From Vanrija pseudolonga (Eukaryota; Basidiomycota; Tremellomycetes; Trichosporonales; Trichosporonaceae), in NCBI RefSeq assembly GCF_020906515.1, contig NC_085853.1:2542001-2606000 (forward strand): 64,000 nucleotides of DNA. Reading direction: 5' to 3'. Both the position numbers and the translations under genes were made by a program. Positions within the stretch are counted from its first letter, which is position 1, and the number at the start of each line of letters is the position of its first letter. Below the pieces are notes generated by a model. The model had not been told where the DNA came from, made no database searches, and was given only the letters and a program-made list of their open reading frames with translations. This document shows, piece by piece, positions 1-46,110 of the stretch.

Positions 1-912
1 GGAAAGGCGCTTCAGTTTCTGGAGGTCATGTTGGAAGACAAACACATCGGGGACGAGGAACGATCCTGGTGGAAGAAAGAAGAGCGTCTCCTCAAAGAAC
101 GTCACCAAATGCTTCTGGGCCTGAACTTCAACCTTCCGTCAGGGGACGATAGTCCTTCACCAGGCGTTTCTGCTAACGGCCTTCACCTGGTTCGGCACAA
201 CCCTCGCCACATGCAACCAGCCCGTTCTGCCAACACCACATCGGCTCCACCTCTCTACTCACCGCCGTCGGTTCCAATTCCGAACTCTACCAGAATGCAG
301 CCTCATCCTCAGCCTCCAGTGGTCCCTCCGCCTGCCCCTCGGACGAACGCCTCTCCCCAGCCTGAAGTGGCAAGGCACAACGTCCTCGGGAGCGGAGGGC
401 AGCAGATCGGCCAGCTCACAGACTACCACGACCATCGCCGCGATACCGACGCCGCCAGCATGAGGACGGCCCCGCCAACGTACCAGACGTTCATCGAAAC
501 CCAGATCGAGAGGCCGGTGGATTCCTCATCTCAGCATCCGTCGGAGGCCGCCTCGGCGACGCCTATCGCGATCCCTTCCCCGAATGAGGTGGCAAGGCGC
601 GCCATCCTTGGCGGACGAGGACCACTGGTCGTCCAGAACCACAGCGACCCCCCCAGCCGGACTAACTCCGACGCCAGCAGGATTACGGCTCTGCCACCAT
701 ACGCTGAGGCCTCAAGGGCCATGGGTCCTCGGATGAAGAAAGCCAGCCGGACACAGGACACTGCGAGGCTTGAAAGTCGCATTCAGGAACTCGAGCGCCA
801 GATTGCTCAGCTGGCGGCACAACAGACGAACACGAACACGAACACGAACACGAAGAGGAACACGAATACGAACACGAACCTGCCCCCGCCCCAGCCCCCG
901 TCTGAGCAGTAG
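1..912 (+). CDS. PY-motif family member A, 3' part (5' end outside window)
   Basis: The frame is open from base 1 to a TAG at 910-912, so the start and probably the upstream exons lie outside the window. An ATG at 28 is possible, but residues before it fit the family pattern (FLEVMLED just upstream of EERLLKERHQML matches KLxxLE followed by the FxxVR helix). The protein then becomes Pro/Ser-rich and carries three related modules, each ending in a PY motif: SAPPLYS, TAPPTYQ and TALPPYA. The second and third modules both begin EVAR and share a DxDAS-like stretch before the PY motif, so they look like internal duplications. A coiled coil (RLESRIQELERQIAQL) and an Asn-Thr repeat close the protein. 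I do not recognise a known family. Role unknown; PPxY motifs suggest binding to WW domains (inference). Confidence 0.7.
   Translation, partial: GKALQFLEVMLEDKHIGDEERSWWKKEERLLKERHQMLLGLNFNLPSGDDSPSPGVSANGLHLVRHNPRHMQPARSANTTSAPPLYSPPSVPIPNSTRMQPHPQPPVVPPPAPRTNASPQPEVARHNVLGSGGQQIGQLTDYHDHRRDTDAASMRTAPPTYQTFIETQIERPVDSSSQHPSEAASATPIAIPSPNEVARRAILGGRGPLVVQNHSDPPSRTNSDASRITALPPYAEASRAMGPRMKKASRTQDTARLESRIQELERQIAQLAAQQTNTNTNTNTKRNTNTNTNLPPPQPPSEQ
826..879 (+). repeat. CGAACA hexanucleotide microsatellite in coding sequence
   Basis: Imperfect tandem CGAACA units, interrupted once by an AGG-containing unit, encode an alternating Asn-Thr tract near the C-terminus of member A. The unit length is a multiple of three, so length change would keep the frame. 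Confidence 0.9.
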
Positions 913-1371
913 AAGTAAGGGATGCAGTGCGCCGGGATATGAATGCCGAAGGTGTGCTACGTCGGAATTGGCGGCCGCCAGGGATGTGGCCGCCGACGGG
1001 GTGGTTGGTTTTTGTCAGGCACAAGCTGTGTGGCAGGACGCTGGCGGACAGGGCTCGCCTCCAGCACCGCCATGCCGACGGTATCGGAGCTCTCACTGAT
1101 AACAGCTGGACAAGATCCGACAATGCTTGGCAGCACACGAGGAGTGCGCCATGACGTACGTAGGGAACGTGCGTGCTACCTGGTCACCCTCGTCGAGTCG
1201 CGGGTTTGAGTCAGCCGTACCCGAGTCATCTGGCTCACTCCGACGGTATATGATCTTGCTCCCAGAAGGACGGTGGGCCACATAGCCATGCTGTCAGTCC
1301 ACACCAACTCTTCAGACCCGTACCGTCCCCCATGTTCATCACGAGCACGGATCGCCGAAACCAAAGCGACA
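913..1371. other. Intergenic, 459 bp
   Basis: Several short overlapping ORFs lie here, but none has family residues, splice signals or good coding character. An in-frame ATG at 1273 could extend the next gene upstream. Confidence 0.5.
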
Positions 1372-2676
1372 ATGACCGAATTCGACCCCCTTACATTTCT
1401 TCCCAATCACAGCTGCCTGGTGCACACCAACCGGAAGGTCGGTGGCGAGGCCGGCGGATTCACAGCTTACTTGTGAGCCCAAGACACCAGCACTCCTGAC
1501 CGTCCGTAGGGAGAGCCTGGCCTTCATCGAAGTGCCTATCGACGAGCGCTGCTCGCTGGCAATGACCACCGTGCACAGGTCCCGCGCGAATGTAAGTCGC
1601 CACTTCGTGTAGCTCGGGACCCACTGACTGACGTCCAGGTACTGGACCACCTGTACCGGGCAACAGTGGGGATCGAGTACATTGACAAAGAGTTTGAGCG
1701 AGAGATCCCATGGACCCTGTACAGGAGGCCGCTCCTCCCCAACACGCCCGACGATCAGATCTGCGCCTTCATCTACCAAACCTTTCGCAAGCCAGGCGCG
1801 TTCCAAACCATCATCAGTTTCCGTGAGCTCGTGAGTGAGAGAGAGCATTGTACCTGGGCTAAACGATAGCTGGTGCGCACGCAACAGGTCATGAGAGACC
1901 GTATCGCGTGGCTTGATGGAGTTCTGCGGACACCAAAGTACCCCGGGCAATCGGCAGACCACGTACTCGCCCCTCCTGCTCCAGTTCAGTCAACAGCCGC
2001 AGTGACAGTCCCAACACCTACTCCAACGAATGTTCAGCGCCCACCTCAAGTCAGTCGAACTATCGTTACCGATCAAAGGCAGAACCCCATCCCAGCAACT
2101 CCTCGCATCATCGATAGGCCGAGACCCGTGGCTCGAGCTGCAGTCCTTCGGACTATCAATCAGACGCAGAACCCTATCCAACCAACTCCTAGCATCATGA
2201 ACAGGCCGAGGCCCGCCAACCTCGGTCTGCAACGCACAGCAGCGACGCCGCTTCTGGAGCTCAGCCCCCCGGCTCGAACCGCCCCGGCTCAACGTCCTAC
2301 CGATCCAACGCCGGCGGCTCATGCCGTTCACACCCCTGCCGTTCATAGTCCCGCCGCTGATATCCCCGCCACTCGAAGCCCTGGGGCCGAGTCTGCCTTG
2401 GCCAACCCTCCACCTCCGTATGCCGGCGACAGCAGTCGAATTGGTGCGCTGACGCAGATCACTTACGAGGCCTTCGCGTCCCGTATCGCCGAGCTCCAGG
2501 CCGATGTCGCCCGCTCCAATCGGGCGAACTTTGCTGCGTGGGAGGAGGTGAAGGCTTCTCAGGCTGCGGTTGCCGAAGCTGAAGCGCGCCTGGCTGTTCT
2601 TGAACGGCGAGCAGAGCTGAAGGCGCACCGAAGGAGCTGGCAGTTCTGGAGGCGGGAAGAAACGGCCGGCGAGTGA
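1372..2676 (+). CDS. PY-motif family member B (four exons)
   Basis: Exons 1372-1472, 1510-1591, 1639-1830 and 1888-2676 join in frame to 387 residues. Introns are 37, 47 and 57 nt, with GTGAGC/GTAAGT/GTGAGT donors and, in the first two, a CTGAC branch site. The start at 1372 is preferred for its ACAATG context; 1273 is an in-frame alternative. The helical region (about 60-145) contains QICAFIYQTF and then, across the last intron, VMRDRIAWLDGVL. It aligns with member C2 (WQFIHAFISHHV, then LDRLRRKTERK), with two introns at equivalent places. A Pro-rich middle carries an 18-residue duplication (QxQNPIxxTPxIxxRPRP at about 188-205 and 217-234). PPPY lies at about 300-303 and is followed by a C-terminal coiled coil. 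Function unknown. Confidence 0.75.
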
Positions 2677-2765
2677 ATCTGCATCGAACTAGTATCTCGT
2701 CATTTGTTGTATGTAACTGATTAGACTGATGCTCGATGATCAGCCTGGGCATCTTCTATGTACGC

Positions 2766-3821
2766 TTACAGGTGCCATGAATGCCGCAGCAATGTTCTCA
2801 GGCCCTCGTCCACTGCGTTTGAACCCAGAGATGGGTCCAGGAGGTGCGAATCGATGTCGAATTGGCCCAGGTCGGCGTACTTGCCGTCTTTGTAGCATAG
2901 CATGCCCATGGTAACTCCCACATACACAACGCCGTAGATGTACCATTTGGCAGCTAACTCGTGGGGTCCGTTGGCGAAGGCTCGTCCGGTCTGAATTGTC
3001 CCGGCAACAAGCAGTCCACAAAGCCCGGCGATAGTGAAAAAGTACCCGATTTGCGGGAACGACTGGAGGTTGAGGGCGCCGTAGGACAAGAACGTGGAGC
3101 CACTGATGAAGAAGAATGTGAACCCCGTTCGAAGTATGAGAGACATTTCGGTTGCTCGTCGACCGAGTTGGAATGAAGTCGCGAAAGACGAAGGTGGTTG
3201 TTGATTGCTTTGCTCAATCACCGTGGGAAGTTGCTGTGTTGTTTGCACTCGTTGTCAAGGAACGGCCAAGGTTGCAACAGGAGCCTACCAAGGAACGAAT
3301 TGCTGTTGGAGGAAGGCGAGGGTCTGAAAGAGGCCCATGCCTAGAAACGCGCTGCCATAGATGTTGATGATCGATTCGACGTGGACGAACCGGAGGGTGG
3401 CCAAAGCAGCGATCAGGTAGAAAATGGCGATGGTTGTGCAACCCAACATGGCCCCGAAGGCAGGGTGTTGGGCAGCAGCGAATGGCGCGACATAGCGAAG
3501 GTACAATGCCCCCATGCAGTAGGGCCCGCCGAGGAAAGTGAACCTGTCGAAGAGAGACAGCTGCTCGTGTCTTGCAGGTGGTGGTCTTTCGTCCTGGTCG
3601 GACAGGGATAGAGCAAACACCGCGGCGAAGTACGCGCTGTAGAACGAGACGGAGGCAGCTAGCCAGAACAGCGGTGACCCGAAAGGCAGTGTGGCCTCTG
3701 CAGCGCCACTGGCCGCCGCGAGGGCTGCAGTGATGTAGGCGATCTTGGACATGCGCGGAGCTGAGATGGAGTGTGAGATGCAGAAGCCAGATTCAAGTTG
3801 TACATAACGCCCACTTGGCAC
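2766..3821 (-). CDS. Multi-span membrane protein of unknown family (one spliced gene or two tandem ORFs)
   Basis: Two minus-strand ORFs, 3821-3285 and 3248-2766, both encode strongly hydrophobic proteins. Reading 3821-3289 and joining to 3207-2766 over an 81-nt GT-AG intron gives one open frame of 324 residues (start at 3821; an in-frame ATG at 3752, MSKIAYI, may be the real start). The first half has about four membrane spans and the second about three. The halves look alike: each has a (R/G)FTF entry, a Gly-rich span, and a YG-containing span before a hydrophilic end, so an old internal duplication is possible. The intron has no clear CTGAC branch site, so two separate genes cannot be excluded. 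No PY motif or transporter signature recognised. Confidence 0.5.
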
Positions 3822-4246
3822 TGTAGTGTTTAGTTGGACACCCGCATGTTTCTGTTACGAGTGGGAACAAAAGGGACACAGGTACCGTACGAACTCAACT
3901 CGAATAAGGCAGGGGCAGGGGATGGACGACAACGGTTTCAAGTGACATGCTGCGTCATTGGGAGAGGGTACCAGTCACTCGAGAGGTGCCGCAGGGAGGA
4001 TGCATCCTCGTCTTACATACGCACGCCTATGGATCGATCGGCAAGGGGTACTGGGGCGGTGGATAGCTGGACGATCAATTACCGCCACTTTCGACCGGTA
4101 AACCAACCATGTCATGGGGGCCCCGCATCCGCGGACAGTTGGTTGACGTTGTTGCTAGACCGCTCTACTGTTGCAGCTATCATCGCCACCCATCTCACTC
4201 TCGCAACATATCCACGGCACGGTAACCACACCACAACGACATTCCC
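3822..4246. other. Intergenic between divergently transcribed genes
   Basis: A 425-bp spacer between the minus-strand membrane gene and plus-strand member C2. It probably holds both promoters. I see no clear TATA box or coding signal. Confidence 0.5.
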
Positions 4247-5033
4247 ATGCTGCCCCTGCCCCCCGAAGATTTCGGCGGAAACGAGAAGTTTAGACAAGTG
4301 TGGGGGGCCAGGGACGCCTATCACTCCAACAACAATACGCTGGAGACGCATCCGGGATACAAACTGTGGTTCCCTCAAGAGTCGGCCGAGGAACTGAACA
4401 GACTGACGGCGGATGAGAAGTATCGCAAGGTGAGAGTACGCAGACACGTCTCGATCTAATCCCAGTATCTCAACTGGCGCGCGCTGTACCTCACAGCCAT
4501 CGAGTATCTCGCCCAAGTCCGCGAGCTGTCGAAAGGGTCCCGGAGCGACCCGTACACCCGCGAACGGACGCACCTGGTGTCCAAGACGTGGGTACATGGC
4601 TCTTCCTCACAGCCAGCTGAACGAAAGGGTGGAATGGCAGTTCATCCACGCCTTCATCTCGCACCACGTCAATGACGGAGCCGTCCTCGCGGGGCTTGCG
4701 GACGAGGTGGGTGTCGAGTTTGGAAGGCGGTGCTGACTCCAGCTCGACCGTCTCAGGCGCAAAACGGAGCGCAAGATCGAGGACCTCGCGTCGGACAGGG
4801 GATACGCACGACACAGTATCACGTTGCCTGTCCCCCCGTCATACGATGCCCGCCAGCAGCTCCTGGATGAGACGCAGCAGCTTGTGCGAAGACTTGAGCT
4901 GCGAGTTGCCGCTCAGAAGGCTAGATCGCCCGGCCGGCCCAGGGTGACAGACGACCAGGCGAGGCTGTTCGCACTGCGCGAGCGGGCGGACGAGCTCGAG
5001 CAAGGACTGGACCTATGCTTTGGACGACAGTAG
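4247..5033 (+). CDS. PY-motif family member C2 (four exons)
   Basis: Exons 4247-4429, 4466-4587, 4628-4706 and 4743-5033 give 224 residues. The introns are only 36, 40 and 36 nt, all GT-AG; the third carries CTGAC. The N-terminus has ETHPGYKLWF, shared with member C3 (PSHPGYLRF). The helical region includes LYLTAIEYL, VEWQFIHAFISHHV and, after a conserved phase-0 intron, LDRLRRKTERKIEDLA. PPSY is at 159-162 and is followed directly by a coiled coil (QQLLDETQQLVRRLELRV) and a second heptad stretch near the C-terminus. With B it forms a distinct sub-branch of the family. No known domain recognised. Confidence 0.75.
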
Positions 5034-5391
5034 CTCCGGGTATAGATGCTCGACGAGAAGGTGTGGCTACAGGATACACGTACTTGGATGTGAAAGAGCC
5101 CTATTGCTACGGGAAGGATGTATTACAATTCATTGGACATGTACAACGAGGTGAAGGAGCCCTCCCAAACACCGACTCATCGCAGAAGCACCTGCTGCTC
5201 CAGATATCGCAGGCCCTCCTGCAAAGCTCGCAAATGGTTGAAAACCTGGAGTCTCCCTCAGCACCCTGTCAAGTCGACCAAACGTACGTGAACGTCATAA
5301 CCGCCCCACTCATAAGGGTACTGAGTGTTTTTGTCGATCCTAAGATTATCGAGAACAAGGGCAAGGTACTCGAGCTCGTCGCTTCTGTAAG
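5034..5391. other. Spacer between convergent family members C2 and C3
   Basis: A long plus-strand open frame crosses this stretch (5015-5602), but it lacks family residues and overlaps the minus-strand gene C3, so I treat it as chance. Confidence 0.45.
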
Positions 5392-5814
5392 CTACCCCGC
5401 CGACAGTCGGCCCGCGCACCTTGAGTTCAGGGGTAGGTATACGGAAATCTCACGACGTGGACCTTCGTGCTTCCACCTCAACTTGCACCCTTCCTCTGTC
5501 ACGATAAACACCTGTTGTATCACCCGGATCTGGTGCTCGAGCTACAGGCCGTCAGCCGCGCCGGGCGGAGTAACGTACCTCGGTGCGAAGGGCGTCAGCT
5601 AGCCCATCGCCCGGCACTTCGGCGAGGCAAGTGTCAATGAACGTCTTGGTGAAGTCTAGGTTCTCGCTGAGTGTTAGTCACGCCGCGGGAAGGTAACTTG
5701 CAAGCGGTGGAAACGGAGGTAGCCTGGGTGCGACGGGTAGGACGTCAAGTTGGTCATGTCCATACGTTTCTCCTTGCGGTACGCCGCTTCCCACTTGTAG
5801 TCGCGCGGGGCCAT
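5392..5814 (-). CDS. PY-family-related short member C3, lacking a PY motif
   Basis: The minus-strand model uses exons 5814-5702, 5666-5579 and 5541-5392, total 351 nt, 116 residues, in frame throughout. The first intron would be a 35-nt GC-AG intron (GCAAGT donor, CTAAC branch, CTCAG acceptor). The second is 37 nt, GT-AG, with CTGAC. PSHPGYLRF near the N-terminus matches ETHPGYKLWF of C2. FTKTFIDTCLAE and then LADALRTE, followed after a phase-0 intron by LEHQIRVIQQ, match the family helices. Compared with C2 it lacks the middle helices, the PPSY motif and the coiled coil, so it is either a compact member or a decayed copy. The GC-AG intron needs transcript support. Confidence 0.55.
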
Positions 5815-6717: not shown

Positions 6718-7476
6718 ATGCCCCCCGAGGCCTGGGGACCGGGCCCGCCGACGCCCCCAGCTACACCGGACGCTACCCCGTTCCGCGTGCCCCCCTTTGC
6801 TGTCCGCGATGCGGACGTGAAGAAGATGTCCCGCGCCGCGGCGTTTGACGCCCGGCGCGAGATCGACAGCATCAAGACGTTCATCCAGACCCGCATGGCC
6901 GCTGGACACGGCGAGCGTGCCGTCCGTCGTGCGCTGCAGGCGATGCAGGCCGAGGTGGGTGACGTCGTAATAGCCAAGCTGACCCGCCAGATGATGGCCC
7001 GTGCGGCCGCCATCACCGACGCACTGGTGTGGATGGAGGAGCAGGCCGAGATCGCCGAGCTCGAGGAGGCGCAGGCCAAAGTGCCCGCCCCGCCGCCGCC
7101 GTACGTGGACAAGGCGCCGGGGTACGATGTGCCGTCTGCACCAGAGCCGGCGCCGGCGCCTGTACCCATCACAGCCCCCCAGATTGTGATCACGCCACCT
7201 GCGCCCACAGCCGAGGGACAGCAGGTCCCCGCGCGTGTCTCGGCCCACGCCCACGCTGAAGACGAGTTCGTCCGCGCCTCGGCCATGCGCGAGGTCGAAG
7301 CCCGTCTCGCGGACATGGAGATCCGCGAGCGCGCTATGGAGCGGCGTCTCGGCGCGCGCGCCTCAGATCCGCGCTTTGCCAAACTTCGTGAAGAGGTAGA
7401 AATGATAAAGGACCGCGTGGCGGAGATGGCTGCCAAGGAGAAGAAGCGGCGGTGGGGTCGAAGTCGTCGACCATGA
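6718..7476 (+). CDS. PY-motif family member D (intronless)
   Basis: A single exon of 252 residues. A Pro-rich N-terminus leads to a long helical stretch (about 48-122): IKTFIQTRMAAGHGERAVRR corresponds to the AVxxAYVxxK helix plus linker, and LQAMQAEV to KLxxLExx. PPPY stands at 126-129. A Pro-rich linker with further Pro-Ala repeats follows, then a coiled coil at about 195-245 (VEARLADMEIRERAMERRL). The C-terminus is basic (KKRRWGRSRRP). The family introns are absent, so this member may have arisen by retrocopying or intron loss. Homology rests on module order and pattern and is weaker than for members with introns. Confidence 0.7.
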   Translation: MPPEAWGPGPPTPPATPDATPFRVPPFAVRDADVKKMSRAAAFDARREIDSIKTFIQTRMAAGHGERAVRRALQAMQAEVGDVVIAKLTRQMMARAAAITDALVWMEEQAEIAELEEAQAKVPAPPPPYVDKAPGYDVPSAPEPAPAPVPITAPQIVITPPAPTAEGQQVPARVSAHAHAEDEFVRASAMREVEARLADMEIRERAMERRLGARASDPRFAKLREEVEMIKDRVAEMAAKEKKRRWGRSRRP

Positions 7477-8501: not shown

Positions 8502-9162
8502 ATGATGACCCAGATCGAGTTCCGCGGCACGCGCATAAACGTGAGCAGTCCACTACGTACACGCGTCCACAGCGCTGACCCACGCCAGATCGGCGCAGTC
8601 GAGACGCAGGGCGACGTCGAGCGCGCGCTGAGGAGCCGCCTGGCCGCCGCGGCGCCAAAGTGAGTCGGCGTGTTACCCGGTTCCATCTAGGCCCCCACTC
8701 ACACCCTTCACCCAGATTCGCATCCGCCGTGCTCTGCGCGTACGTCGAGCACAAGTACAGCCGGGGCAAGGACGAGGCCGGCGTCGGGCGTAAGCTCGAG
8801 ACATTAGAAACGAGAGTGAGTCTGGCACTGGGAGATCGTCACTCACGCCTGCCTAGATGCCCCAGTTCGCAGTCACGTTCCGCTCCATAAGGAGACGGTA
8901 CTCGCTCGGCCCGAGCCGCGTCCTCGGGCCAGGGGACGACCGGGACCCCGTCGTGCGCACGGACGAGGGCGGAGATGGGGGGCGAGCACGCCCGCCAAGC
9001 TATGCGCGGGTCGACCCCGACCCCGTGTCCGTCGCGGCGGTCGCGCAGCTCGCGGCCGCTGCCGAGGCCGCGCTCGAGGACCTGCTGGCGGAAGAAGCGT
9101 GCCCCTCCTGGTCGCCTGCAGCTGTTATAGGCCGCGACGCGCCACCTGCGTTCGTGTCGTGA
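8502..9162 (+). CDS. PY-motif family member E (reference member, four exons)
   Basis: Exons 8502-8540, 8589-8659, 8716-8815 and 8857-9162 give 171 residues. Introns are 48, 56 and 41 nt. This is the clearest member. Exon 2 (71 nt) holds VETQGDVERAL. Exon 3 (100 nt, entered in phase 2 through a split Lys codon) holds FASAVLCAYVEHK and KLETLETR. Exon 4 starts MPQFAVTFRSIRRRYSLGPS. PPSY is at 116-119, followed by an Ala/Glu-rich helix (VAQLAAAAEAALEDLLAEE). A second ATG (8505) immediately follows the first. The same exon lengths and junctions recur in other members. Role unknown. Confidence 0.85.
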
Positions 9163-9793: not shown

Positions 9794-10450
9794 ATGGGCA
9801 AATGCACCTGCCCACACTCGCCAGCGTGCCGCGATATCGCGGGCACGAAGATGACCGCGCCAGAGGTCGTCTCGGCGCTGAATACACGCGCGTGCCGGCA
9901 GGACCTGGGGTGAGTCGGGTCGGGCGGGTGGTCACTTTTGTTTTCTTTCCTCCACTGACACGCTGCCCAGCCGCGCCCTCGCAGTCGTGTGCAGCTACGT
10001 CGAGCACAAGCTCGGCAAGAAATCCACCTCGGGCGTCGTGTTCAAGCTTGAGTCGCTCGAGCGCTGCGTGAGTTCGCGCCCCGTGCACCCCCTGCAGTTT
10101 GCTGCAGCCTGCTGACACCCCGCCAGCTCCCACAATACGCCGAGACGTTCCTCGCCATCCGCTCAGCCTACTCGCTCCCCCCATCACGCGTGCTCAAGGG
10201 CATGGGCGTGCGCTCGCATCGCCGCCGCCTAGAGCCCGCCGTCGCGGTCGTGCGCGTCGCGTCCGAGCGCGACCCCGAGCTGCCGGCCTACTCGTCCAAC
10301 GACCCAGATCCGCTCGCGACCGGCCGGCTGGTGGACGAGCTCGCGTTCTGGGCCGAGGTGGAGAGCTGGGGCGCGGTTCCGGCTGTTGTGGAGGAGAGCT
10401 GGGGCGCGCCGCCTGCGTTTGGCGCGCCGCCGTCGAGGGTGCTGGTGTAG
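9794..10450 (+). CDS. PY-motif family member F (three exons)
   Basis: Exons 9794-9909, 9971-10067 and 10127-10450 give 178 residues. Introns are 61 and 59 nt, with TGAC branch sites. Exon 1 begins with a Cys-rich MGKCTCPHSPAC and ends with PEVVSALNTR. The 97-nt core exon holds RALAVVCSYVEHKLGKK and KLESLERC. Exon 3 begins LPQYAETFLAIRSAYSLPPS. Later motifs are LPAY at 123-126 (an LPxY variant) and PPAF near the C-terminus. No long coiled coil. Closest in layout to E; both share the string AYSL/RYSL followed by SRVL. Confidence 0.85.
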
Positions 10451-11447: not shown

Positions 11448-11852
11448 ATGCCAGCCGCAAACTCATTGCCAGCACCAAAGAACGCCGCGGGCCTGCTCGC
11501 CGCCCTCAACCCGAAACACGCCCTCAGCACCTCGGACGCAGCAGCCATCATCCGCGCGTACGCAGAACACAAGCTCCGCCGCCGTCGGCCCTCGACGCTC
11601 GCACAACTCACACACAAGCTCGACGTGCTGGAGCCGCGCACCTGTCCGTCCCACAAGCCAGCCTTCGCCGCCGTCCGCGCCGAGCTCCACCTCCCCGCCT
11701 GGACGGCAGTCTGCACCACGAAGAAACGCCAGGTCATGGGCATCGCCGCGCCGGAGCTGGCATATGTGAGCTATGTCGGCGGGGCGACGGAGCACGAGAC
11801 GGCGCGGCAGGAGTGGGTCGAGCTCTCGTTCGACTCGAGCGAGGAGGACTAG
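11448..11852 (+). CDS. PY-family member G (intronless, PY motif lost)
   Basis: A single exon of 134 residues. AAGLLAALNP fits the first helix, AAAIIRAYAEHKLRRRR the second and LTHKLDVLEPR the third; FAAVRAELHLPAW is the final helix. The site where most members have an intron (after LExR) is uninterrupted and reads TCPSHKPAF. No PPxY is present. ELAYVSY occupies the place where the PY motif is expected, and the C-terminus is acidic (SSEED). The ATG context is CACAATG. Confidence 0.75.
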   Translation: MPAANSLPAPKNAAGLLAALNPKHALSTSDAAAIIRAYAEHKLRRRRPSTLAQLTHKLDVLEPRTCPSHKPAFAAVRAELHLPAWTAVCTTKKRQVMGIAAPELAYVSYVGGATEHETARQEWVELSFDSSEED

Positions 11853-12834: not shown

Positions 12835-13195
12835 ATGCCCTTGCGATCCAAATCCCCCAACGCAGCCGTGAGTCCAAGTCAACCCACCCCGTCCCCCGCC
12901 ACTGACGCAGCGCCAGGTCGGAGCAATCACCAGCACCGAACGCGCGCTCACTGCCCTCTCGGACCGCGGCCGCGGAGGGCAAGCATACACCCAAGCCGTG
13001 CTCTCTGCGCTCGTGCTCTCCCTCCGGGCCCGGGGAGTGAGCGACGCGCAGGTCGACGCCGAGCTCGTGCAGATCCAGCGCGCGGGGCATGCCGCTGCTG
13101 TCGCCGAATTTAGGTTCGGCGGGGTGGGACTCGGGGGCGGGGCGAAGTTGAGGAGCGAGTCGAGGGAGACGCTGCCGCCTTATAGCTTGATGTGA
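12835..13195 (+). CDS. PY-motif family member H (minimal, two exons)
   Basis: Exons 12835-12867 and 12917-13195 give 103 residues, the shortest family member. The 49-nt intron is GT-AG with CTGAC. VGAITSTERALTAL matches the first helix, YTQAVLSALVLSLRARG the second and VDAELVQIQRA the third, with no intron between them. The fourth helix is shortened (HAAAVAEFRFGG) and Gly-rich. The protein stops three residues after LPPY, so it consists of the helical domain plus a C-terminal PY motif. Confidence 0.75.
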
Positions 13196-14138: not shown

Positions 14139-15629
14139 ATGTCGTCCCCGCAAAGCCCCGTCCAAGCCGCGCCGCCGCCCGCGTCCCCCTCCTTCGTGGG
14201 CGGCATCTCGAGCGGCATCACGAACCACGCCGCCGAGATCATCGGCACGTCGCCGCTGCTGTCCCGCCTGCCGGGCATGCAGCGCGTCGGGCGCCCGCCG
14301 CTCGTGTCGACCGGCTCGAGCGGCGCGCCGTCAACCACCACCACCAGCACCCCGCCGACGACGACAAGCCCGCGCATCCAGAGCCCGCGCAGCCCGCGCG
14401 CCCCGCCCGCACCTGTGCGCGCGATCACGAGCGCGTCGGGTGTGCTTGCTGCGCTGATGGACCCGGGCAGGAGCCACTCGGACCGGCAGTGAGTAACAGC
14501 GCAAATTGGGGAGGTCGCGTGCTGACAGACCCGCCCTACAGATACGCCGAGACCGTCGTTCGCGGCTACGTTCAGGCCAAGCTGTCCCGCAAGAAGGGCA
14601 AGGGCGACATCGCACCCAAGCTCGACGCGATCGAGCACAAGGTGGGTGGAGGAGTGGATGACCCGCGCTGACGCCCAGGTGCCGCAGTACAAGTCGGTGT
14701 TCCGGAGCGTGCGCAACGAGTTTGGCCTGCCGGCGTGCACGCCCGCGCCGGAGCGCGCTACCTCGCCCGGGCGCTCGCGCTCGCCTGCGGGCCGCTCGAC
14801 GTCGCCGGGCGCAAGCACGTCGCGCGTGCCGACGTCGCCCAACGTGCACCCCGCGCTGCTGTCGCGTCCCGGCGTGCACCGCGCCGACACGGAAAGCTCG
14901 GACGACTTCGACATGCCCCCTCGCTACGAGGACGCGGGGCGCGACACGCCCGTGTCCCCCGTCTCGCCAGGCATCACGATCACGGGCGGCTCGCCGCTGC
15001 CCTCCCCCGTGCCCCCGTTTGCGGCGCTCCCGCCGGCAGTGACCGCCTCGCCGCCAACGTCGCGTCCTGGCTCGCCGCCCAACCTCGCGCCGCCGCCCAA
15101 CCGGCCGGGCAGCCCGCCCGTCCGGCCAGGCGTGCAGCGTAACTCGTCCGGCCCGATCCAGACGACGATCGCAGTGCAGAGCCTGTTCCATCCGCCCATG
15201 GTGCGCCCCGGCCAGACTTCGCAGTCGCCCACGTCCCCGAACGACCTCGAAGCGCGCCTCGTGCAGGCCGAAGTCGTCCGTGCCCAGGCGGAGCGCGCGC
15301 GTCGGGACGGCGAGGCGGCGCGGCGCGAGGGCGAGATTGCCAAACGCGAGGCCGAGGCCGCGAGCCGTGAAGCCGAGGCTGCGCGCCGCGAGGCCGCACT
15401 CGCGGCAAGAGAGCGCGACCTCAGCCGCCACCTCGAGGAGGCGGAACAGGGGCGTCGCCGCGCTGAAGACGCGCGCCGGGACCTCGAGCGCCGCCTGGCG
15501 GATATGGAGTACGAGCTCAGTCTCCTCCGCCCGACTCAGCGGCGCGCCGTATCCGCGCCGAGCACGGAGTGGGCGGACTCGAGCCCCGAGGCCACGCCTG
15601 CTGCAGAGAAGACAGTCCACGAGGTGTAG
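14139..15629 (+). CDS. PY-motif family member I with long coiled coil (three exons)
   Basis: Exons 14139-14488, 14542-14641 and 14679-15629 give 466 residues. Introns are 53 and 37 nt. The N-terminal 115 residues are Pro/Ser/Thr-rich and end with SASGVLAALMDP. The core exon is exactly 100 nt and entered in phase 2, as in E and P. It holds YAETVVRGYVQAKLSRKKG and KLDAIEHK. The next exon begins VPQYKSVFRSVRNEFGLPA. PPRY is at 230-233. A long Pro-rich linker leads to a strongly charged coiled coil at about 365-460 rich in REAEAA-type heptads. The architecture matches the larger member N. Confidence 0.85.
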
Positions 15630-16057: not shown

Positions 16058-16888
16058 ATGTCCATCCACGACAGGTTCAAGGACGACCGTAAGGGCGGCT
16101 CGGTCGGCGGCTTCTTCAAGGCCCTCGCAAGCGGCACCACCGCCTCAGGGCTGGGCAGGCGGGTGTACGACGCCGCCGAGTCGGGCAGTGGGACGGAGCA
16201 CCGCCAGACGCAGCAGGCGTGGCAGGCTGCTCAGGCGCAGCAGGGGCCTGGTGGGGTGAGTGGGAGCGTAGACGGGCTCGGCGCCACAGGCGACGAGCGC
16301 CGAGCGCGCCAGACTTGCCTGCTTGAGCAATGAGCGAAAGAATCGACACTGACGCCGTCTCCTCTCCCTTCGTCTCCTCGGATCACACACATCTCTCGGC
16401 CTCGAACGAACTCTCCTCGTCTCGCTACCGACCCGACCCACCTCGCACACCTCGCTCCGCTCGGCGTGCTCGGCGACACAGACCGGCCCCAAGCCCGCCC
16501 CGCCGCAGCTCCCGACCATCAACAACGCGTCCGACGTCGAGCGCGCCCTCTCGCCCAACACGCAGCAGTACGACCCCAACTACGCGAGCGCGGTGCTGCA
16601 GGCTTTTGTGCGCCAGCTGCTCGAGACGGGCACGGACGAGAAGAGCGTCGAGGGGGAGCTGGACGAGCTGGAGCGGAGGGTGAGTGGGCACGACAGCCCG
16701 AAGGGCTGGCGGGGGACGAGGGCGAGGGCGAGGACGAAGGCCGACGGACGGAGGAGGACGAGTGAGGTGACCGCGACACTGACGCCCCGCCCCAGCTCCC
16801 AGACTATTCCAACGCAGGCGTCTTCCGCCATGTGCGGGATACGTACCGCCTCGGCTCGGGCCTGCCGCCCGCGTTCAGCCAGCACTGA
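16058..16888 (+). CDS. PY-family member J (three exons, C-terminal PPAF)
   Basis: Exons 16058-16255, 16482-16679 and 16796-16888 give 162 residues. The introns, 226 and 116 nt, are long for this locus. Exon 1 encodes a Gly/Gln-rich N-terminus beginning MSIHDRFKDDRKGG. Exon 2 contains INNASDVERAL, the clearest match to the DVERAL helix of E, then YASAVLQAFVRQLLETG and ELDELERR. Exon 3 begins LPDYSN, continues VFRHVRDTYRLGSG and stops just after PPAF, a PY motif with Phe in place of Tyr. An ORF inside intron 1 is in another frame and is not needed by the model. Confidence 0.75.
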
Positions 16889-17659: not shown

Positions 17660-17689
17660 GGCGGCGGCGGCGGCGTGTCGGCGGCTGCC

Positions 17690-19238: not shown

Positions 19239-20509
19239 TCATTGTCCTTGTCCATAGCTCGTCTCGCCCCCACCCCCGCCATAGCTTTGCTCTCTTCCTC
19301 CCTCCCTCGACCCAGTGTCCGTTACTGGCCCGGCATCGTCGAGCATCTCGACATCGTCTCCCCTGCTCCTGCGGAACGCGTCCTCGATTACCTGGAGCCG
19401 CTCGTTCATCTCCGTCGGCGAGGTCGTGCTCGCTGGGGGGATGCCGAGGCCGAACACGCGCCCGCTCGCGGGCGGGAACGTTCGCGACATCTCCCCCTCG
19501 GTCTGAAGACTCAGCCGCGGGCGGCGGGCCGAGGTCGGCGGATACGGGAAATACCCCTCCCCTCTGTGCTCTGCTGCGGTCGACCGAGGCCGCTTGGTGG
19601 GGTGCGGTGCCTGTGGCGGGAACGTCCAGTGGCTCGGCATGATGTCTGTTTGTCGGCGCCGCGGCTGCGTGTGCGGTCTCGACGGCGGGCCCATGGTCGC
19701 GTGCGGCGGCTGGTGGTAGTGGTGGTGGTGGCTCTCGACTGGGGCGCTTGACGAGCGGCTGTACGGCTCTGGCAGCGCTGCATGCGTCGGGGACGGCGTG
19801 ACCTCTTCATCTGGGAAGAGGGGGGACGCCGGTAGGGAGTGTTCCTGCCGCACGGCTGCGAAGAGCGGCGCGAGGTTGGCCGACATCTGGGCGTGAGTCG
19901 AGAAGAAAAAAAAGTCGTTTGTACCACTTACTTCGGGAGAGTAGAGCACTTGCCGCTCAAGCACAGCCAGCCGGTCCGAGATGACGCCCGGATCGGTGGA
20001 TATTGTGAAGAGCTCGTCTACGTGAGCACGAATCACCGAGATGATGTATCTGACGGTTAGAGGGTGCAGTGGCCAGACGCACTTGTCGTCGTTGCCTTGT
20101 AACGCGTGCAGCGCGCCAACAATTTCTTCTAGGTCGTGGTGGACGTGGGGTGACTGCGTGGGTGTGAGCGTCTGCTGCTGTGCAGGCAGTGGGTACAAGC
20201 GGCACAGCAAGCTCGCTTTCTTGGTCGCTCGCTGGCTCGCTCGGTCACTCGCCCACTCACCCCGGCGCTCTGCGTGCTCGCGCTCGTGCCGCCGCCACTG
20301 ACCGCGAGCTGCTGCTGTTCGTCCGTGTCGTGTGCTGAGCGGGCCGAACGGGCCGAGCTCGTGCTGGGAATGCTGGCGCTCGCCCGGCTGGTCCCAGGAG
20401 CGTAGGGCCATGCTCCTCCGCCGGCGGCCATGTCAAGATGAGGGGGTGTGTGGACATGCGATTCGGTAATGAGTGACAGCGACGAGGCGGCGCCGTCTTC
20501 CAGCTCCAT
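19239..20509 (-). CDS. PY-family member K (four exons, minus strand)
   Basis: Exons 20509-20261, 20153-20083, 20049-19932 and 19886-19239 give 361 residues. Introns are 107, 33 and 45 nt. Exons 2 and 3 are 71 and 118 nt, exactly as in member M, and the split Lys codon at their junction matches E. Exon 2 holds HDLEEIVGALHALQ, exon 3 YIISVIRAHVDELF and RLAVLERQVLYSPE, and exon 4 starts MSANLAPLFAAVRQEHSLPA. Instead of PPxY there is LPEPY. The tail is His/Pro/Arg-rich, with a short heptad stretch (MNERLQVIEDAFRR) and a Gly-rich end. The longer unspliced minus-strand frame ignores these introns and is not the gene. Confidence 0.8.
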
Positions 20510-28630: not shown

Positions 28631-29455
28631 ATGTCCCACCCCCATCCCACCTCCCCGACCGAAGCCATGGCGCTCACCGCGCGCGGCCGCAGCGAGCCGT
28701 TCCATCTGAGCAAGTACATCGTCCCGCCCAACGACTCGAACCCCGAGGATCATCGGTACGCGTACGTTGACGGGCTGGGACGCCGCCAGAGCGGGCAGGT
28801 ACGTCGCACCTCCTGCATACCTCAAGCGCCCACGGCTCGCTGACGCTCGCCTCCCCAGGTGCCCGTGCTGCGCTTCGCGAGCGAGGTCGAGCAGTGGCTC
28901 GCAAAGGAAGAGGCCCTGTACGCGCCTTTTGCCGTGGCCGTGATCCGCGCGTATGTCGACTACAAGGCTCGGGGCGCCGCCGCCAGGGAGGTGGCGGAGA
29001 AGCTGCTCGCCCTCGAGCGGCAGGTTGTCGTCGCGCGCGGGGTGAGTAGTGGGCGTGCGTTAGTCGTGTTTTGCTGACGACACCAGCTGACACACACGGC
29101 CGACGCGTTCGCCCAGGTACGCCGCGAGCGTGGCCTCGGGCCGTCGAGCGTGCTCTCTGCCCTTGCGGACCGGCAACGGGTCGACCGCGACGCCGCGTCC
29201 GAGCGGGGCGAGCATGTGCCCCCTAGCTATGTGCAGGCTGTTGACGCTGCTGCTGCTGCTGCTGCTGCTGCTTCTGCTGCGCCTACACCTGCGCCGTCGG
29301 CGCTCGCGGACCAGGTGCGCGCGCTGGTTGGCCTCGTGGCGCGCCTCGAGTCGCGCGTCAAGGACCTCGAAGGCGCGCTTGGAGAGGAGAGGGAACGGCG
29401 GAGGGAGCTCGAGGGTGCGCTGGCCGTGCTCACTGCTGAGCGGGGGCTGAGATAG
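28631..29455 (+). CDS. PY-motif family member L (three exons)
   Basis: Exons 28631-28798, 28859-29041 and 29087-29455 (introns 60 and 45 nt) give 239 residues. Exon 2 contains FASEVEQWLAKEE, FAVAVIRAYVDYKARG and KLLALERQVVVARG. Exon 3 starts LTHTADAFAQVRRERGLGPS. The junction falls after a longer LERQVxxxx linker, a trait shared with K and M. PPSY is at 162-165, followed by an Ala tract encoded by a GCT repeat and a coiled coil (LVARLESRVKDLEGALGEER). PPSYVQA is identical to member O, suggesting a recent common origin. A second in-frame ATG lies at codon 13. Confidence 0.85.
29245..29280 (+). repeat. GCT trinucleotide repeat (poly-Ala)
   Basis: Near-perfect GCT units encode an Ala run between the PPSY motif and the coiled coil of member L. 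Confidence 0.85.
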
Positions 29456-31367: not shown

Positions 31368-32015
31368 ATGGGAGAGGAAAGGGCTGGACAGTCGACCACC
31401 ATGCCATTCACCGACCCCGACGAAGCTTGGAACTCCAAGTTTTTCGAGATTGACAACTGGCGGAGGAACAGCCCGCCCATGGTGAGTGCAGCAGGCAGTG
31501 GCTGGCTTGGCGTGTATCAGCCACCTGACGCGAGGCAGATGCAAATCCCGCCCATCCGCCACGGCAGAGACGTGTATGCCGCGCTCTCAGACCGGCCTTT
31601 GGACGTCGAGTAAGTGGACCCTGCCTGCGCTTATCGATCCATCAGCCGCTGACGTCCCCAGCTTTGCCGTCGCCGTCGTCAACGCGTACGTGTGGACCAA
31701 GCAGGTGGAGGGGCTCGACCGCGAGACAATACGCAAGCGGCTCGCGTTTGTCGAGCGCGAGGTGTTGATCATGAACGATGTGGGTAGTGGTGCGAGCGCA
31801 CGAACGCACGACCGCAGACTGACACTGCGCCCCAGCTCCGCTGTTGCGCACACGCGTTCGCCACCATCCGCGACGACCACGGCCTCGGATTCTCCCCCGT
31901 CCTCACGTACATTGTCGAGCGCGAGGGCGAGGGGAGCATCTCGCCCCCGCCCAGCAGGAGGGGGACGGCAGAGCTCGAGGTCACCCAGCCCCATCTGCTC
32001 GCCGCGTCGGATTAG
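31368..32015 (+). CDS. PY-family member M (four exons, no PY motif)
   Basis: Exons 31368-31481, 31539-31609, 31662-31779 and 31836-32015 give 160 residues (introns 57, 52 and 56 nt). An in-frame ATG at 31401 in CCACCATG context is an alternative start. Exons 2 and 3 are 71 and 118 nt, identical in length and phase to member K. Exon 2 has HGRDVYAALSD, exon 3 FAVAVVNAYVWTKQVEG and RLAFVEREVLIMND, and exon 4 starts LRCCAHAFATIRDDHGLGFS. FAVAV(V/I)xAYV is shared almost exactly with L. The short tail has SPPPSRRG but no PPxY and no coiled coil, so the member is essentially the helical domain alone. Confidence 0.8.
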
Positions 32016-38814: not shown

Positions 38815-41611
38815 ATGTCCTCGTGGGCACCCGATTCAAGCATGCGGCCCCCTCCTCCACAACAACACTTGAATCACCCCGGAGGCTTCGGCCAGCCCCC
38901 TCCACAACCAGCAGCGGGCATGATGGCCATCCCCGCCGCCGCTGCCGCCGCCCACGGAGCACAGCACCAGCGGCCACACAGCGTCGCGTTTGTGCCGCCG
39001 GGCCACTTGTCGCTGCCGCACATGCAGCACCACGCGCAAGACCGGGGCATGTTTGGGCGCGCGTCGGGCATCGCGCAGACACGGCCTGGCGACATGCGCT
39101 CGCGGCCAAATGTGAGCTTGAGTTGCTCCCTGTCGCCGCCGCTGACTCTGTCTAGCCGTCGAGCATCAGCACGTCGGACGACGCGATCGAGGCCCTCGCC
39201 CCGCCCGCGCCCTTTGACCCGCTGTATGCCGAGGCCGTGCTCCTCGCGTACGGGCGCGCGAAACGCGGCCGGTTCAAGGGCCGTAGTGATGACGAGGTCA
39301 ACGCCAAGCTCGACGCACTCGAGCAGCGGGTGAGTGAAGAGCCAAGGCCGCGCGCTGACGACAGTTACCGAGATACTATGCCGAGTCGTTTGGCAAGGTG
39401 CGCAACACGCTCGGCCTGCGCGGCGGCGCGTCAGAGTTGCGCGTCACGCCGTTCATGATCCCGCCACCGAGTCAGCCGCCCCAGCAGCAGCAACAGGCGG
39501 CGGCGCAACCGGCACCACCAACAGCTGGCCTCTCAACAGCGCCATCCATCAGAATCCCGGACACGACGAGCGGGCCAGCACAGAGCAGCCTGCAGGTGCC
39601 GGCAGGGCCTGACAACTTTCGACCGTCGTCAGCGCCGACGCGCACAGGCTCGTGGCCGAGGCGCCATGGCAACATCCTGCCCGTGTCGCCGCCCATCCCC
39701 GAGGCTGCAGCAGCAGGAACATCGACAGCAACAACCGCCCCAGCCCCCGGCCCATCACACCCGGTGCCACCAGCACAAGTCGAGTCGCCGCCCGTGCCCG
39801 CCCCGCCTGCAGCCACGCGCCCTCGCGTCCGCCGCAGGTCAACTGACATCGTCACTGACTTGCCACCCGCGTACGCGATGGTCGACCCAAGTGGGGAGGG
39901 ACGGCCGACGAGACCGGCTTCGATAACTTCTGCGCCCGTGGCAATCCCTGGACGGTCAGGATCGAGCGATGCGCGCGCAACGTCGCCGTCGAACCAGCAC
40001 CGCCTGTCCGTCACGCAGCTCGCGTCGTCGCCACCAGGGGTCGCGACGTCACCGACGGCGGGGCGGCATAGCGTCGGGACGCTAGAGTCTGCTGCCATGG
40101 CGTCTGCACGTGCCGAGCTCGAGTCGCTTGCGTTGCTTGAAGCGTCGCGCAGGAGGGAGCAGGAGGCTGCACGTCGCGAAGCGGAGCTCGCTCGGCGAGA
40201 AGAGGAGCGTGCAGCGGAGGATGCGCGGCGCGAGGCGGAGCGTGTGCAGCAGGAGGAGCAGCGCCGGGCCGAAACTGCGCGTCGTGAAGCCGAGCTGGCT
40301 CGCAGGGAGGAGGAGCGGGCGACGCAAGAGGCGATTCGGGAAGCCGAGCTCATGCGGCGAGAGGACGAACTGCGCAAGCGTGAAGAGCGCGCCGCCGAGC
40401 TCGCACGCCGCGAGGAGGAGTTGCGACGCCGCGAAGAGCGTGCGGAGGAGCGCGAGGTCCACCTCAAGATGATCGCCGAGGAGGCCAGTCGGGAGCGGTA
40501 CGAGCGTGAGCAGGAACGTGAGCGTGAACGCGAACGAGAACGAGAGCGCGAGGCGACGTCGTCACCGCCCGCCGTCGCGTCGTCGAGCTCAGGATTGCGT
40601 CGGATAACGACGAGCCCCGAACCCCCGACACCAAGCAGACAGACAACGGCGCCGGCGGCACCATGGGATCACGGTTCGCGCCAGTCATCCACTTCGACAT
40701 GGAGCAGACGCACGTCCGAGCCCGTCTCGCCGACGGTGTACGTCTCTGCGCCGGAGACGATGGTACCCCCGCCGCCTCCTCCCAGGCCGGCGCCTTCGGC
40801 ACTCGACCTCCCCGACACGCTGCAGCCCCGCATGAACTCGAGCTACATGCGCCCTGTGCTGCCTGCGAGACCGGTAGTGGCGAACGGTGCGTCGCCACCG
40901 CCAATCCCTGCACGGCCAGTGACGCACTACGTCGCTGAGCCCTCACCGCCCATCATGACCATGCCGGTGCCGATGCCGCATGTCTCGCCGCTGCCGTCGA
41001 CAATGCCGACGCCGCATCCGTATGTGTCCCCCACGCTGCAACACGCGACTCTGCCGGCGATGGTCTCACCGCCTCTCGCACCTCCAATGTCACCCACATT
41101 GCAACACGGGACCATGCCCTCGATCGTGTCGCCGCCGCTTCCGCCACGACCGACGACTCACCCCGCCATCAATATCCCCCAGCCGTCCGTCTCGCCGTCG
41201 CCGACACTACCCCCGCCGCCGTCGCACCCCGACACGAGACCACTCCCGCAGCCAGCGACGCTCGGCCCTGTGCTCCCACCGCCTAGCCATCCCGGCCGCG
41301 CGCCAGCCAGCCCTATCCGCAACGCACCCCCGCTGCCGCCGCCTAGATCGCCCAATCTCCCAGCGACGACAACAAGAGGGTTCGAGCCGCCGACCCCTGG
41401 GCCCAATGTCCCCGGGTCGTGGATCGATGGCCCGCCGCTCGAGCAGGTGCCGACGAGACCGCTCGAGGTGCAGGCTAGACCCCTACCCCCTCCGCCGCCT
41501 TCTCCTGGCGGAGCCGGTCCCGCCTCGGTGCCGTTGCTGCCGCCCAACCTCGGCCTCGGGAGCAAGGGCAAGGCGCGCGAGGCTGCGTTTCTGAAAGCGC
41601 TGTCAAAGTAG
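38815..41611 (+). CDS. PY-motif family member N, giant form (905 aa, three exons)
   Basis: Exons 38815-39111, 39156-39329 and 39365-41611 (introns 44 and 35 nt, both with CTGAC) give 905 residues. A Pro/His/Gln-rich N-terminus precedes the domain: ISTSDDAIEALAPP, YAEAVLLAYGRAKRGRFKG, VNAKLDALEQR, then after the phase-0 intron LPRYYAESFGKVRNTLGLRGG. PPAY is at about 324-327. A charged coiled coil of about 150 residues follows (about 405-555), built from REAELARREEE-like heptads. The last 350 residues are Pro-rich with repeated MSPTLQH and VSPPL units and SH3-type PxxP motifs. The overall plan equals member I, enlarged. Could act as a scaffold (inference). Confidence 0.85.
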
Positions 41612-41833: not shown

Positions 41834-41884
41834 GCTCGACAACGGCCACGAGAGCATGCATCCTCTCACACCATCATCATCACA

Positions 41885-43761: not shown

Positions 43762-45230
43762 ATGAGCTACAGCACGACCTCGCAGCGTACCCCATCCCAC
43801 GCGCAACAGCGCCTGCCGCGCCCGCAGAGCCTCCCCCCGCCGGCGAGGGGCAGCTTTGCGGCGCTCGGCATGCGGTCGTTCAACAGCCTCGGCGCGCTGG
43901 CAGAGGAGCGCGCCATGCCGCCTCCGCCGCCGCATGGCCCCTCGACGCAGCAGGCGCACGCGCCGAGCCTCGCCGCGCTCATGGGCACCTCGACTGCGGC
44001 ACCTTCTACGCCGCCGAGCTTCCGGCGGTCGCTGCTCGGCTCGCCGCTTTCTGGGCGCTCGACACCCGGCCCGCAGACGCCTAGCACGCCCACCCGTCCA
44101 CAGGCGCACACGCAGGCTCCTGCTCCTCCTGCAGCCCCGGCCGAGTCAAGCGCCGCCGCGTCCCCGCGCGACCGGCGCCGCGAGAGCGGGCTCCGCGGCC
44201 TCGTTGCGCCGCTGCAGCGCGCGCTCGAGGGCCACCCGCCCTGGCCGTACACCTACATTGACGACGACTACGTGTGGTGCTCTTACGTGAGTGCGCGGGC
44301 GAGGGGTGGTTGGAGTGGCGCTGACGCCGCCCCCAGGTCAACCCCATGTTCACGTCGCAAGACGTCAAGGCCGCGCTGCACGCCGACGAGGCGTACGAGC
44401 GCCCGCAGTACCCCGTTGCCGTGCTCCGCTCGTACATCAGCTACAAGCTCGGGCGGGTCAAGTCCGCGGCGCTGGTCGTCGACAAGCTAAAGTACATCGA
44501 GCTGGACCTCGTCACCGACGGCGGGCTCGTGCACCTGTGCGGGGCGTTCGCTGCCATTCGGGACGAGTACATCCTGGGCTACTCGTCCGTGGCCGCCATC
44601 CGGCGGCTACAGCGCACGCCGGCGACGCTGCGGGCAATGGCGCGCTCTGGATCTCTCCCGTTCGGCGAGGACGAGTCGGAGGCGGCCCCGGCGTTCGACG
44701 ACGGCGCAGGGCTCGCGTTCGCCCCGCCGTCCTATGTGCAGGCGACGGACGCGGCGTCCGACGAGCGCAAGTACTGCCGGGCGAAGCGCGCCGCGCGCAG
44801 CTACGAGCGCCGGCTCGTCGAGAGCGAGGCGGCGCGCAGGACAGCAGAGGTCGCGTGGCGTGCTGCTGAAGAGGCGCGCGCCGAGGCCGAGGACGAGAAG
44901 GAGCGCCTCGCGGACCAGGTGCGCCGGCTCGAGGCGGTCGTTGCTGGCCGGAGAGCGTGGCCGCTCGCCGGCCACAACGAGAACGACGGGCGTAAGATGG
45001 ACATCGGGCAGATGGGGCTCTACAACGCCTGGACCGACGCTGACGCCGGTGGTGCCAGCGACGACGACGACGGGCTGGACGTGTTCGGCAGGGTCGAGGT
45101 GCCCGCCCCGCTCGTCGCCGTCGCCCCGCCGAAACCGCCCCGCTCGGTCCGCCGCAAGCCGGCGCCGAGCTTGATCCTGCCTAGCTTGCCGGCACTGGAC
45201 AACCTCTCCCTCCTGGCGAGGGACGAGTAG
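43762..45230 (+). CDS. PY-motif family member O (two exons)
   Basis: Exons 43762-44286 and 44337-45230 (intron 50 nt, CTGAC) give 472 residues. The Pro/Ser/Thr-rich N-terminus contains Pro runs. Exon 2 carries the whole domain without the usual second intron: FTSQDVKAALHADE, YPVAVLRSYISYKLGR, VVDKLKYIELDLVTDG, then FAAIRDEYILGYSS. PPSY is at 305-308, within APPSYVQATDAASDE; PPSYVQA is identical to member L. A coiled coil follows (about 315-372). The tail contains an acidic Asp run (SDDDDGLD) and Pro-rich PPKPPRSVRRKP. Intron loss at the LExx junction marks it as derived within the L/K/M sub-branch. Confidence 0.85.
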
Positions 45231-45384
45231 CATATGCATTGTGTGTGATTGCGGTGTTGGCGCCGAGTGTGGCGGTGCGCGGGTGTGGTGGTTGTCCTGA
45301 CTGGTGATGTGCGCCACGCCGCGCCGCCGACCCGCCCCCTCCGCGGCTGTCGGGATGACGTCGGGGATGCTAGTACATATTGTT

Positions 45385-45390
45385 TATAAG
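45385..45390 (+). promoter_or_regulatory. TATA-like box of member P
   Basis: TATAAG 50-55 nt upstream of the ATG at 45440. Confidence 0.6.
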
Positions 45391-45439
45391 CGCTGCTTGT
45401 ACTGGACGTCAACTGTTGAATGCTCCCCAACACACACAC

Positions 45440-46110
45440 ATGGCCGTCAACATCATGTTACCCCTCCTCCTAGCAGGCGAGCCCTCCCGCCGAGCATACC
45501 TCCCCAGGCCCGCGTCGCAAGACCTCCTCCGCCGCCTCGAGTCGGGCTCAGTCGGGCCACTGTAAGTCAACCCCCTTCCCTCTCCCCCTCGGCGCAGCTG
45601 ACGATGACAAGCAAAGCCGAGACACTACTAGGGAAGCACGTCACCTCGCTCGGCGAAGACGGCGAGCCGCTGTCCACCATCGCCAACGAGCTAGAATACA
45701 TGGAGATGCGGGTGAGCCATGCCCCACCACCAACGCGCTGACTGCAGATCGACCCGTCCCTTGCGCCTGCGTTCATCGCCGCACGCGAAGAACACGCCCT
45801 CGGCGAGTCGGAGGCGCTTGGCCGGCGCGGGCTGGTACACCAGGCGACCAAGAGCCTCGAGGCGAGCAGGAAGCGACGTGCCGACCAGCGAGCACCGCCC
45901 GCATATGTCGGCGATGGAGGAGCGCCGGCCGGGCCAGCCCCCGACGCCGCGACTACGCGCCTGCTGGCCCAGCTCCGTGCGGCCGAGGACGCGCGGAGGG
46001 CCGCGGTGGATATGTACCTCGCTGTCGAGGCGGAGCGGGCGCTGCTCGAGGCGCGGGTGCGGGAGGCAGAGGGCCGGCTGGCGGCGTGTACATGCTCTGC
46101 ATCGCGTTAG
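45440..46110 (+). CDS. PY-motif family member P (three exons)
   Basis: Exons 45440-45561, 45612-45711 and 45748-46110 (introns 50 and 36 nt) give 194 residues. The first acceptor is AAG; the nearby CAG would put a stop in frame, and CTGAC lies upstream. The core exon is 100 nt, entered in phase 2, as in E and I. The first helix reads PASQDLLRRLES. The second is diverged (AETLLGKHVTSLGE), the third clear (IANELEYMEMR), and exon 3 begins IDPSLAPAFIAAREEHALGES. PPAY is at 124-127, followed by a coiled coil to the C-terminus (LLEARVREAEGRL). Its exon structure identifies it as a member despite weak sequence in helix two. Confidence 0.8.

Follow-up and report, generated by a model that had tools for sequence, protein, structure and literature searches.

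We analysed a 64,000-nucleotide stretch of DNA (hereafter the window; C5:2542001-2606000) from the genome of Vanrija pseudolonga, a basidiomycete of the order Trichosporonales. The assembly counts 24,867,894 bases in 9 contigs, of which contig C5 makes up 2,724,646 bases. Twelve of the 17 genes listed in the first 46 kb of the window have in common a helical domain of ~70 residues, which is predicted to form four helices and is described by none of the libraries that we searched. In many members the domain is followed by a PPxY or LPxY (PY) motif. Taken as a whole, these features are best explained if the genes belong to a PY family of an Rsp5/NEDD4-type ubiquitin ligase with a new helical domain, a reading to which we give a probability of about one half. 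Its members would most likely be clients or adaptors of the Rsp5-like ligase encoded in the same genome.

A shared helical domain in neighbouring genes

The genes of the 46-kb list were labelled A to Q in positional order; members elsewhere on C5 are denoted by x and their position in kb (x2209.5 lies at C5:2209.5 kb). Manual splicing of the listed genes, guided by donor, branch and acceptor signals, gave uninterrupted reading frames at 16 of the 17 positions; A is an open frame truncated by the window edge. In cross-checks, the model of M proved identical to the public protein P0001 (LOC62_05G007717) from the model's second methionine on, and those of J and K aligned lengthwise with Vanrija albida proteins. 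Compared with our start at window position 28631, the public M protein begins 12 residues later, and the start codon is uncertain. For L, which the first-pass annotation had started at 20509, our model starts at 20431 instead. The public model of the V. albida orthologue of L (P0003, Q8F55_008218) seems to translate introns that are spliced out of L, and that annotation may be off.

Genes F to Q form a real family. Scored with profiles from which each had been left out in turn, they reached 15.8-72.4 bits, compared with 9.2-12.3 bits, depending on the profile, for the best of 5100 shuffled proteins. In a separate control, the best match in 250 kb of reversed DNA scored 10.2 bits. They also share intron positions: a phase-2 intron falls between profile columns 16 and 17 in F, G, J, L, N and Q, and a phase-0 intron between columns 50 and 51 in F, G, J, K, M, N, O and Q (53 and 54 in L), with the domain uninterrupted by introns in H, I and P. 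As the splice models were made by eye with the pattern in mind, the intron evidence is not blind. Together, the held-out profiles, the two controls and the common intron positions rule out a chance or low-complexity resemblance. The members are as follows (window coordinates and strand, features, held-out score).

F, 8502..9162 (+): domain and PPSY; introns 8541-8588, 8660-8715 (phase 2, in the domain) and 8816-8856 (phase 0, in the domain); 72.4 bits
G, 9794..10450 (+): domain and LPAY; introns 9910-9970 (phase 2) and 10068-10126 (phase 0); 55.1 bits
H, 11448..11852 (+): single-exon domain without PY motif; 41.3 bits
I, 12835..13195 (+): short divergent domain, LPPY close to the C-terminus; intron 12868-12916; 15.8 bits
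J, 14139..15629 (+): domain, PPRY and charged helix-like tail; introns 14489-14541 (phase 2) and 14642-14678 (phase 0); orthologue Q8F55_008214; 57.4 bits
K, 16058..16888 (+): domain, with a conserved LPPAF (PPxF) near the end; introns 16256-16481 and 16680-16795 (phase 0); orthologue Q8F55_008215, used for an AlphaFold2 (AF2) model; 63.4 bits
L, 19239..20431 (-): domain without PPxY/LPxY; introns 20260-20154, 20082-20050 (phase 2) and 19931-19887 (phase 0); orthologue Q8F55_008218; 36.7 bits
M, 28631..29455 (+): domain, PPSY and coiled-coil-like tail; LOC62_05G007717; introns 28799-28858 and 29042-29086 (phase 0); orthologue Q8F55_008221; 48.5 bits
N, 31368..32015 (+): domain without PY motif; introns 31482-31538, 31610-31661 (phase 2) and 31780-31835 (phase 0); 46.8 bits
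O, 38815..41611 (+): domain, PPAY, long charged helix-like stretch and Pro-rich tail; introns 39112-39155 and 39330-39364 (phase 0); 42.9 bits
P, 43762..45230 (+): single-exon domain, PPSY and charged helix-like stretch; intron 44287-44336; 46.4 bits
Q, 45440..46110 (+): domain, PPAY and charged helix-like stretch; introns 45562-45611 (phase 2) and 45712-45747 (phase 0); 24.9 bits
E, 6718..7476 (+): probable distant member, intronless, with PPPPY and a charged tail; 9.5 bits

The first-pass annotation had placed all 17 genes on one plan, which stands for F to Q, is probable for E and is unsupported for A to D. The held-out scores of the genes outside F to Q were 5.9 (A), 2.5 (B), 6.8 (C), -1.6 (D) and 9.5 bits (E). 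With a 52-member profile and 5000 shuffles of each protein, the number of shuffles that equalled or exceeded the real score was 2 for E, 2 for A, 149 for C, 128 for B and 3464 for D. E scored 8.5 bits with this profile, below the best reversed-DNA control (9.4 bits), and a dispersed member on C1 matches it at E = 4.7e-4, in part via its PPPPY stretch. The match in A falls within the C-terminal coiled coil of that protein. Membership of A to D is unsupported by three profiles and by a profile-profile comparison, which gave A, C and D a probability of 0.7% against the family. PY motifs are also present in A (three of them), B, C and E.

By eye, A, C and D resemble one another, and they possibly represent a separate small family (FIDxxV...LxxxLxxL) spread over C5:2534500-2548000 (L029, L030 and window positions 1-5814). 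Two weak matches of this kind at C5:2534.5-2534.8 kb scored 11.4 and 8.5 bits, against 9.8 bits for the best reversed control. The whole of C, used as a genome query, matched itself only.

That no named domain fits, as had been supposed at first, was borne out by searches of Pfam, NCBIfam and PDB sequences with the helical domain, which returned no significant match. None of the 12 domain cores exceeded a curated Pfam cut-off, the best being the core of I against DUF6074 (E 0.00068, 20.2 bits, cut-off 27.2); the best NCBIfam match was NF049876 (E 0.0083, 16.2 bits, cut-off 250). We took these two matches, and that of E to DUF4597 (E 0.0028), as chance. The window members scanned have no second recognisable Pfam domain, and limited protein searches found relatives whose named hosts are all Vanrija. 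Two AF2 models are all-helical with an identical helix order, with predicted local distance difference test values of 79-98 per ten-residue block in the domain; in the model of P0006, which belongs to the x2288.6 orthologue set, PPPY sits in a low-confidence linker.

The coiled coil said to follow 'often' is less general. A crude composition proxy for a helical tail is passed by 7 of the 35 readable members, and among the 12 window members only by J, O, P and Q; the tail of M also looks coiled-coil-like by eye.

The family across the genome and between species

Profile searches of fetched DNA brought the family to 55 loci; four are dispersed, and the other 51 fall within C5:2.124-2.636 Mb. The array spans 2,124,182-2,635,932 (0.51 Mb), or 2.1% of the genome. 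Its 51 loci comprise the 12 of the window, 25 others on C5, 13 candidates selected for fetching (13/13 confirmed) and a locus at C5:2324 kb. Search counts are lower bounds, and 55 is a minimum. The weakest loci kept consist of two adjacent exon pieces each near control level, at 2143.0 (12.5 and 12.7 bits), 2143.5 (12.1 and 9.0), 2287.6 (11.0 and 10.5) and 2410.5 kb (15.3 and 10.0). We excluded two matches, one of 6.0 bits at 2142.6 kb and one of at most 8.9 bits at 2630.1 kb, and the total leaves aside 13 further array positions known from search matches alone and six weak off-array matches (E 0.02-5.6). The dispersed loci are:

C1:2146.5 kb, 38.3 bits
C4:2937.3 kb, 41.4 bits
C3:3993.5 kb, 38.4 bits
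C5:1211.6 kb, 37.8 bits

An array member used as query gave at least 50 matches, counted per exon, and 48 of these lay in the array. With the dispersed C1 gene as query there were at least 29, two to itself, 26 in the array region and a weak one on C2. The clustering is thus not merely an artefact of array queries, because a dispersed query also matches mostly the array.

The array is split into islands, and 2.45-2.55 Mb is devoid of matches above 7 bits apart from E. Similarity falls weakly with distance along C5 (Mantel r 0.22, 46 members, 0/2000 permutations). The median identity between paralogues within the domain is 34%, and the closest array pair, at 2131.8 and 2136.8 kb, reaches 74%. 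By eye, a subgroup at C5:2.13-2.21 Mb (L005, L014, L020, L022 and L051) has an extra conserved stretch following the domain, approximately VLxM[DE][WFY]PP.

Five orthologues were found in V. albida, and domain identity was measured for four of them: 86% for J, 89% for K, 73% for M and 92% for x2288.6. Among 30 sequences compared, the best paralogues of the same genes reach at most 40% (J), 42% (K) and 47% (M and x2288.6). L is 69% identical to Q8F55_008218 across the aligned full length. Because the orthologues are this much closer (73-92%) than any paralogue compared (at most 47%), the tested members most likely arose before the two species diverged. The density of the array had been taken as a sign of rapid lineage-specific birth, which finds no support for the members that can be tested. 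In V. albida the orthologues of J, K, L and M are numbered 008214, 008215, 008218 and 008221, an order that matches the window. The orthologue of x2288.6 (008350) lies on the opposite side of J-M relative to V. pseudolonga, which indicates that the larger gene order changed between the species.

PY motifs, VWA domains and a putative ligase partner

The PY motif was said to follow the domain 'usually'. Counting motifs after the domain and ignoring those within it, we found PPxY or LPxY in 21 of 35 readable members, far above the shuffled-tail mean of 2.97 (maximum 9 in 2000 shuffles). PPxY alone was found in 18 of 35 (shuffled mean 2.09, maximum 7), and the reversed motif in 2 of 35. In the window itself, 8 of 12 members have the motif, and H, K, L and N lack it. 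The count leaves out x2136.8, which runs off, x2235.2 and x2628.2, of which only an exon is available, x2329.7, the 13 candidate-fetch loci and the loci on C3, at C5:1211 and at C5:2324; x2204.9 is also outside it and has PPHY. It includes x2209.5, which runs off its locus with its motif visible. For comparison, about 4% of the whole yeast proteome is reported to contain PY and about 7% LPxY (PMC1557994). The motif is retained in the three orthologue sets that possess one, namely M/P0002, x2288.6 (P0006/P0007/P0008) and J/P0009/P0010, and K retains LPPAF.

A candidate partner is encoded at C3:1202489-1204192, where a HECT domain and three WW domains share one 720-residue frame, as in Rsp5. Rsp5 itself is described as recognising PPXY or LPXY through its three WW domains, and several of its adaptors bear such motifs (PMC2810449).

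Four members appear to continue in-frame into a VWA domain. In the dispersed C4 gene the order is domain, PPAY and VWA, the last passing Pfam PF00092 at 29.2 bits (cut-off 23.8). A search with this VWA gave in-frame matches beside the domain at three further loci:

C5:1210592-1211203: VWA; 420-residue frame for domain and VWA
C5:2203825-2204112: VWA of x2204.9; 372-residue frame for domain and VWA, with PPHY between them
C5:2207241-2207624: VWA of x2209.5; 892-residue frame with PPPY between; the read tail ends 399 bases short of the VWA

That domain and VWA share a frame is judged from coordinates and open-frame length. PPxY stands between the two in all three members read there (PPAY in C4, PPPY in x2209.5, PPHY in x2204.9). 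Two of the four VWA members are dispersed genes, and the arrangement of domain, PPxY and VWA suggests an older, founding plan.

On this basis, the founder would have been a dispersed gene with domain, PPxY and VWA, and local duplication with loss of VWA would have yielded the short forms. The PPxY motif would dock on the WW domains of the Rsp5/NEDD4-type ligase while the helical domain, with a VWA or a coiled coil where present, would bind a partner or cargo. Members could then recruit partners to the ligase, or themselves be clients under its control, as with yeast PY adaptors but via an unrelated binding domain. Members without PY may, speculatively, partner PY-bearing ones.

Several observations count against this reading. 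No PY motif was found in 14 of the 35 readable members, including K; among the four full-length pairs (J, K, L and M) K is the best conserved (90%), and it bears PPxF rather than PPxY. The two AF2 models are not independent of each other, having alignment rows in common. The VWA search, in which 8 candidates were scored, gave no match in the window, nor did Pfam report a VWA in F, G, L, N, P, Q, M, O, E, B, C, P0006 or the V. albida counterparts of J and K, and the founder model is drawn from four genes. Finally, six of the nine WW matches over the cut-off in the genome fall outside the ligase frame, and the PPxY motifs may serve other WW proteins. As regards K, phenylalanine is reported to stand for the PY tyrosine with Yap65 and several other group I WW domains (PMC1557994).

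The same motif data fit a substrate role equally well, in which the Rsp5-like ligase would drive turnover of the PY proteins and not of cargo that they bring; the lack of a second recognisable Pfam domain in the scanned window members is in line with this. Nevertheless, identity of 73-92% in the helical domain across species, with linkers that change more in the M and x2288.6 orthologue pairs, suggests partner binding, and the VWA-bearing members resemble multi-domain scaffolds. We regard a substrate role as possible, with the odds against it. Rather unlikely is a structural scaffold unrelated to ubiquitin, whose PPxY motifs serve a non-ligase WW protein. The WW matches outside the ligase frame speak for it, as do the charged helix-like tails and Pro-rich linkers of some members; nevertheless, Prp40- and Pin1-type WW domains favour ligands other than PPxY. 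That the array is a product of duplication under little constraint and with no common function is very improbable: the low median identity of paralogues and the patchy presence of PY motif, VWA and tail would fit, but five V. albida orthologues exist, four of them conserved in the domain as given above, J, K, L and M keep their order and the PY motif persists in every orthologue set having one.

The ligase-associated reading finds its closest parallel in the arrestin-related trafficking adaptors (ARTs) and Bul1/2 of Saccharomyces cerevisiae, likewise several paralogous soluble PPxY/LPxY proteins docking on the WW domains of Rsp5, as described in PMC2810449. In ARTs, however, the arrestin fold does the binding, whereas the Vanrija domain is predicted to be all-helical. 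No Pfam arrestin family was matched by the 12 cores, by full-length F, G, L, N, P and Q, or by M, O, E, B, C, P0006 and the V. albida J and K proteins.

Intracellular fungal VWA proteins are similar to the four Vanrija members in their VWA, but the N-terminal helical domain of the latter is absent from the libraries searched, and the window has no VWA match. Rpn10-type proteins, with VWA and UIM, recall x2209.5, in which a UIM-like stretch was noted by eye in addition to the VWA; Pfam, however, shows no UIM in the 503 residues scanned, and Rpn10 is not known to have PPxY or a helical domain of the Vanrija kind. The x2209.5 locus (L024) has PPPPPY and the UIM-like stretch, with the VWA downstream. 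VWA-Vint proteins are described as another VWA family, with a Hint-type domain (PMC2362128).

More tentatively, the array might be the lineage's own repertoire of ligase adaptors. A new domain would have been combined with PPxY and VWA in a single dispersed gene, and about fifty copies would then have arisen along one chromosome arm, giving one WW-HECT ligase many alternative specificity subunits in parallel with, and unrelated to, the arrestin adaptors of other yeasts. Should the family indeed act with the ligase, the known classes of PY-motif adaptors would be joined by a large, so far undescribed gene family with a new protein domain, and it would show that an adaptor repertoire can evolve in a yeast lineage from a domain with no relationship to arrestins. 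The two Vanrija species, the conservation of orthologues between them and the single candidate ligase make the prediction testable.

Neighbouring genes

TauD and AcnX genes are interspersed among the family members. In the window, an Aconitase X gene at 49294-51222 (-) encodes AcnX and swivel domains in one frame. A 1455-codon open frame at 32947-37314 has a Gln/Pro-rich start and no Pfam match, and ARAGORN detected a tRNA-Thr gene at 29739-29825 (-).

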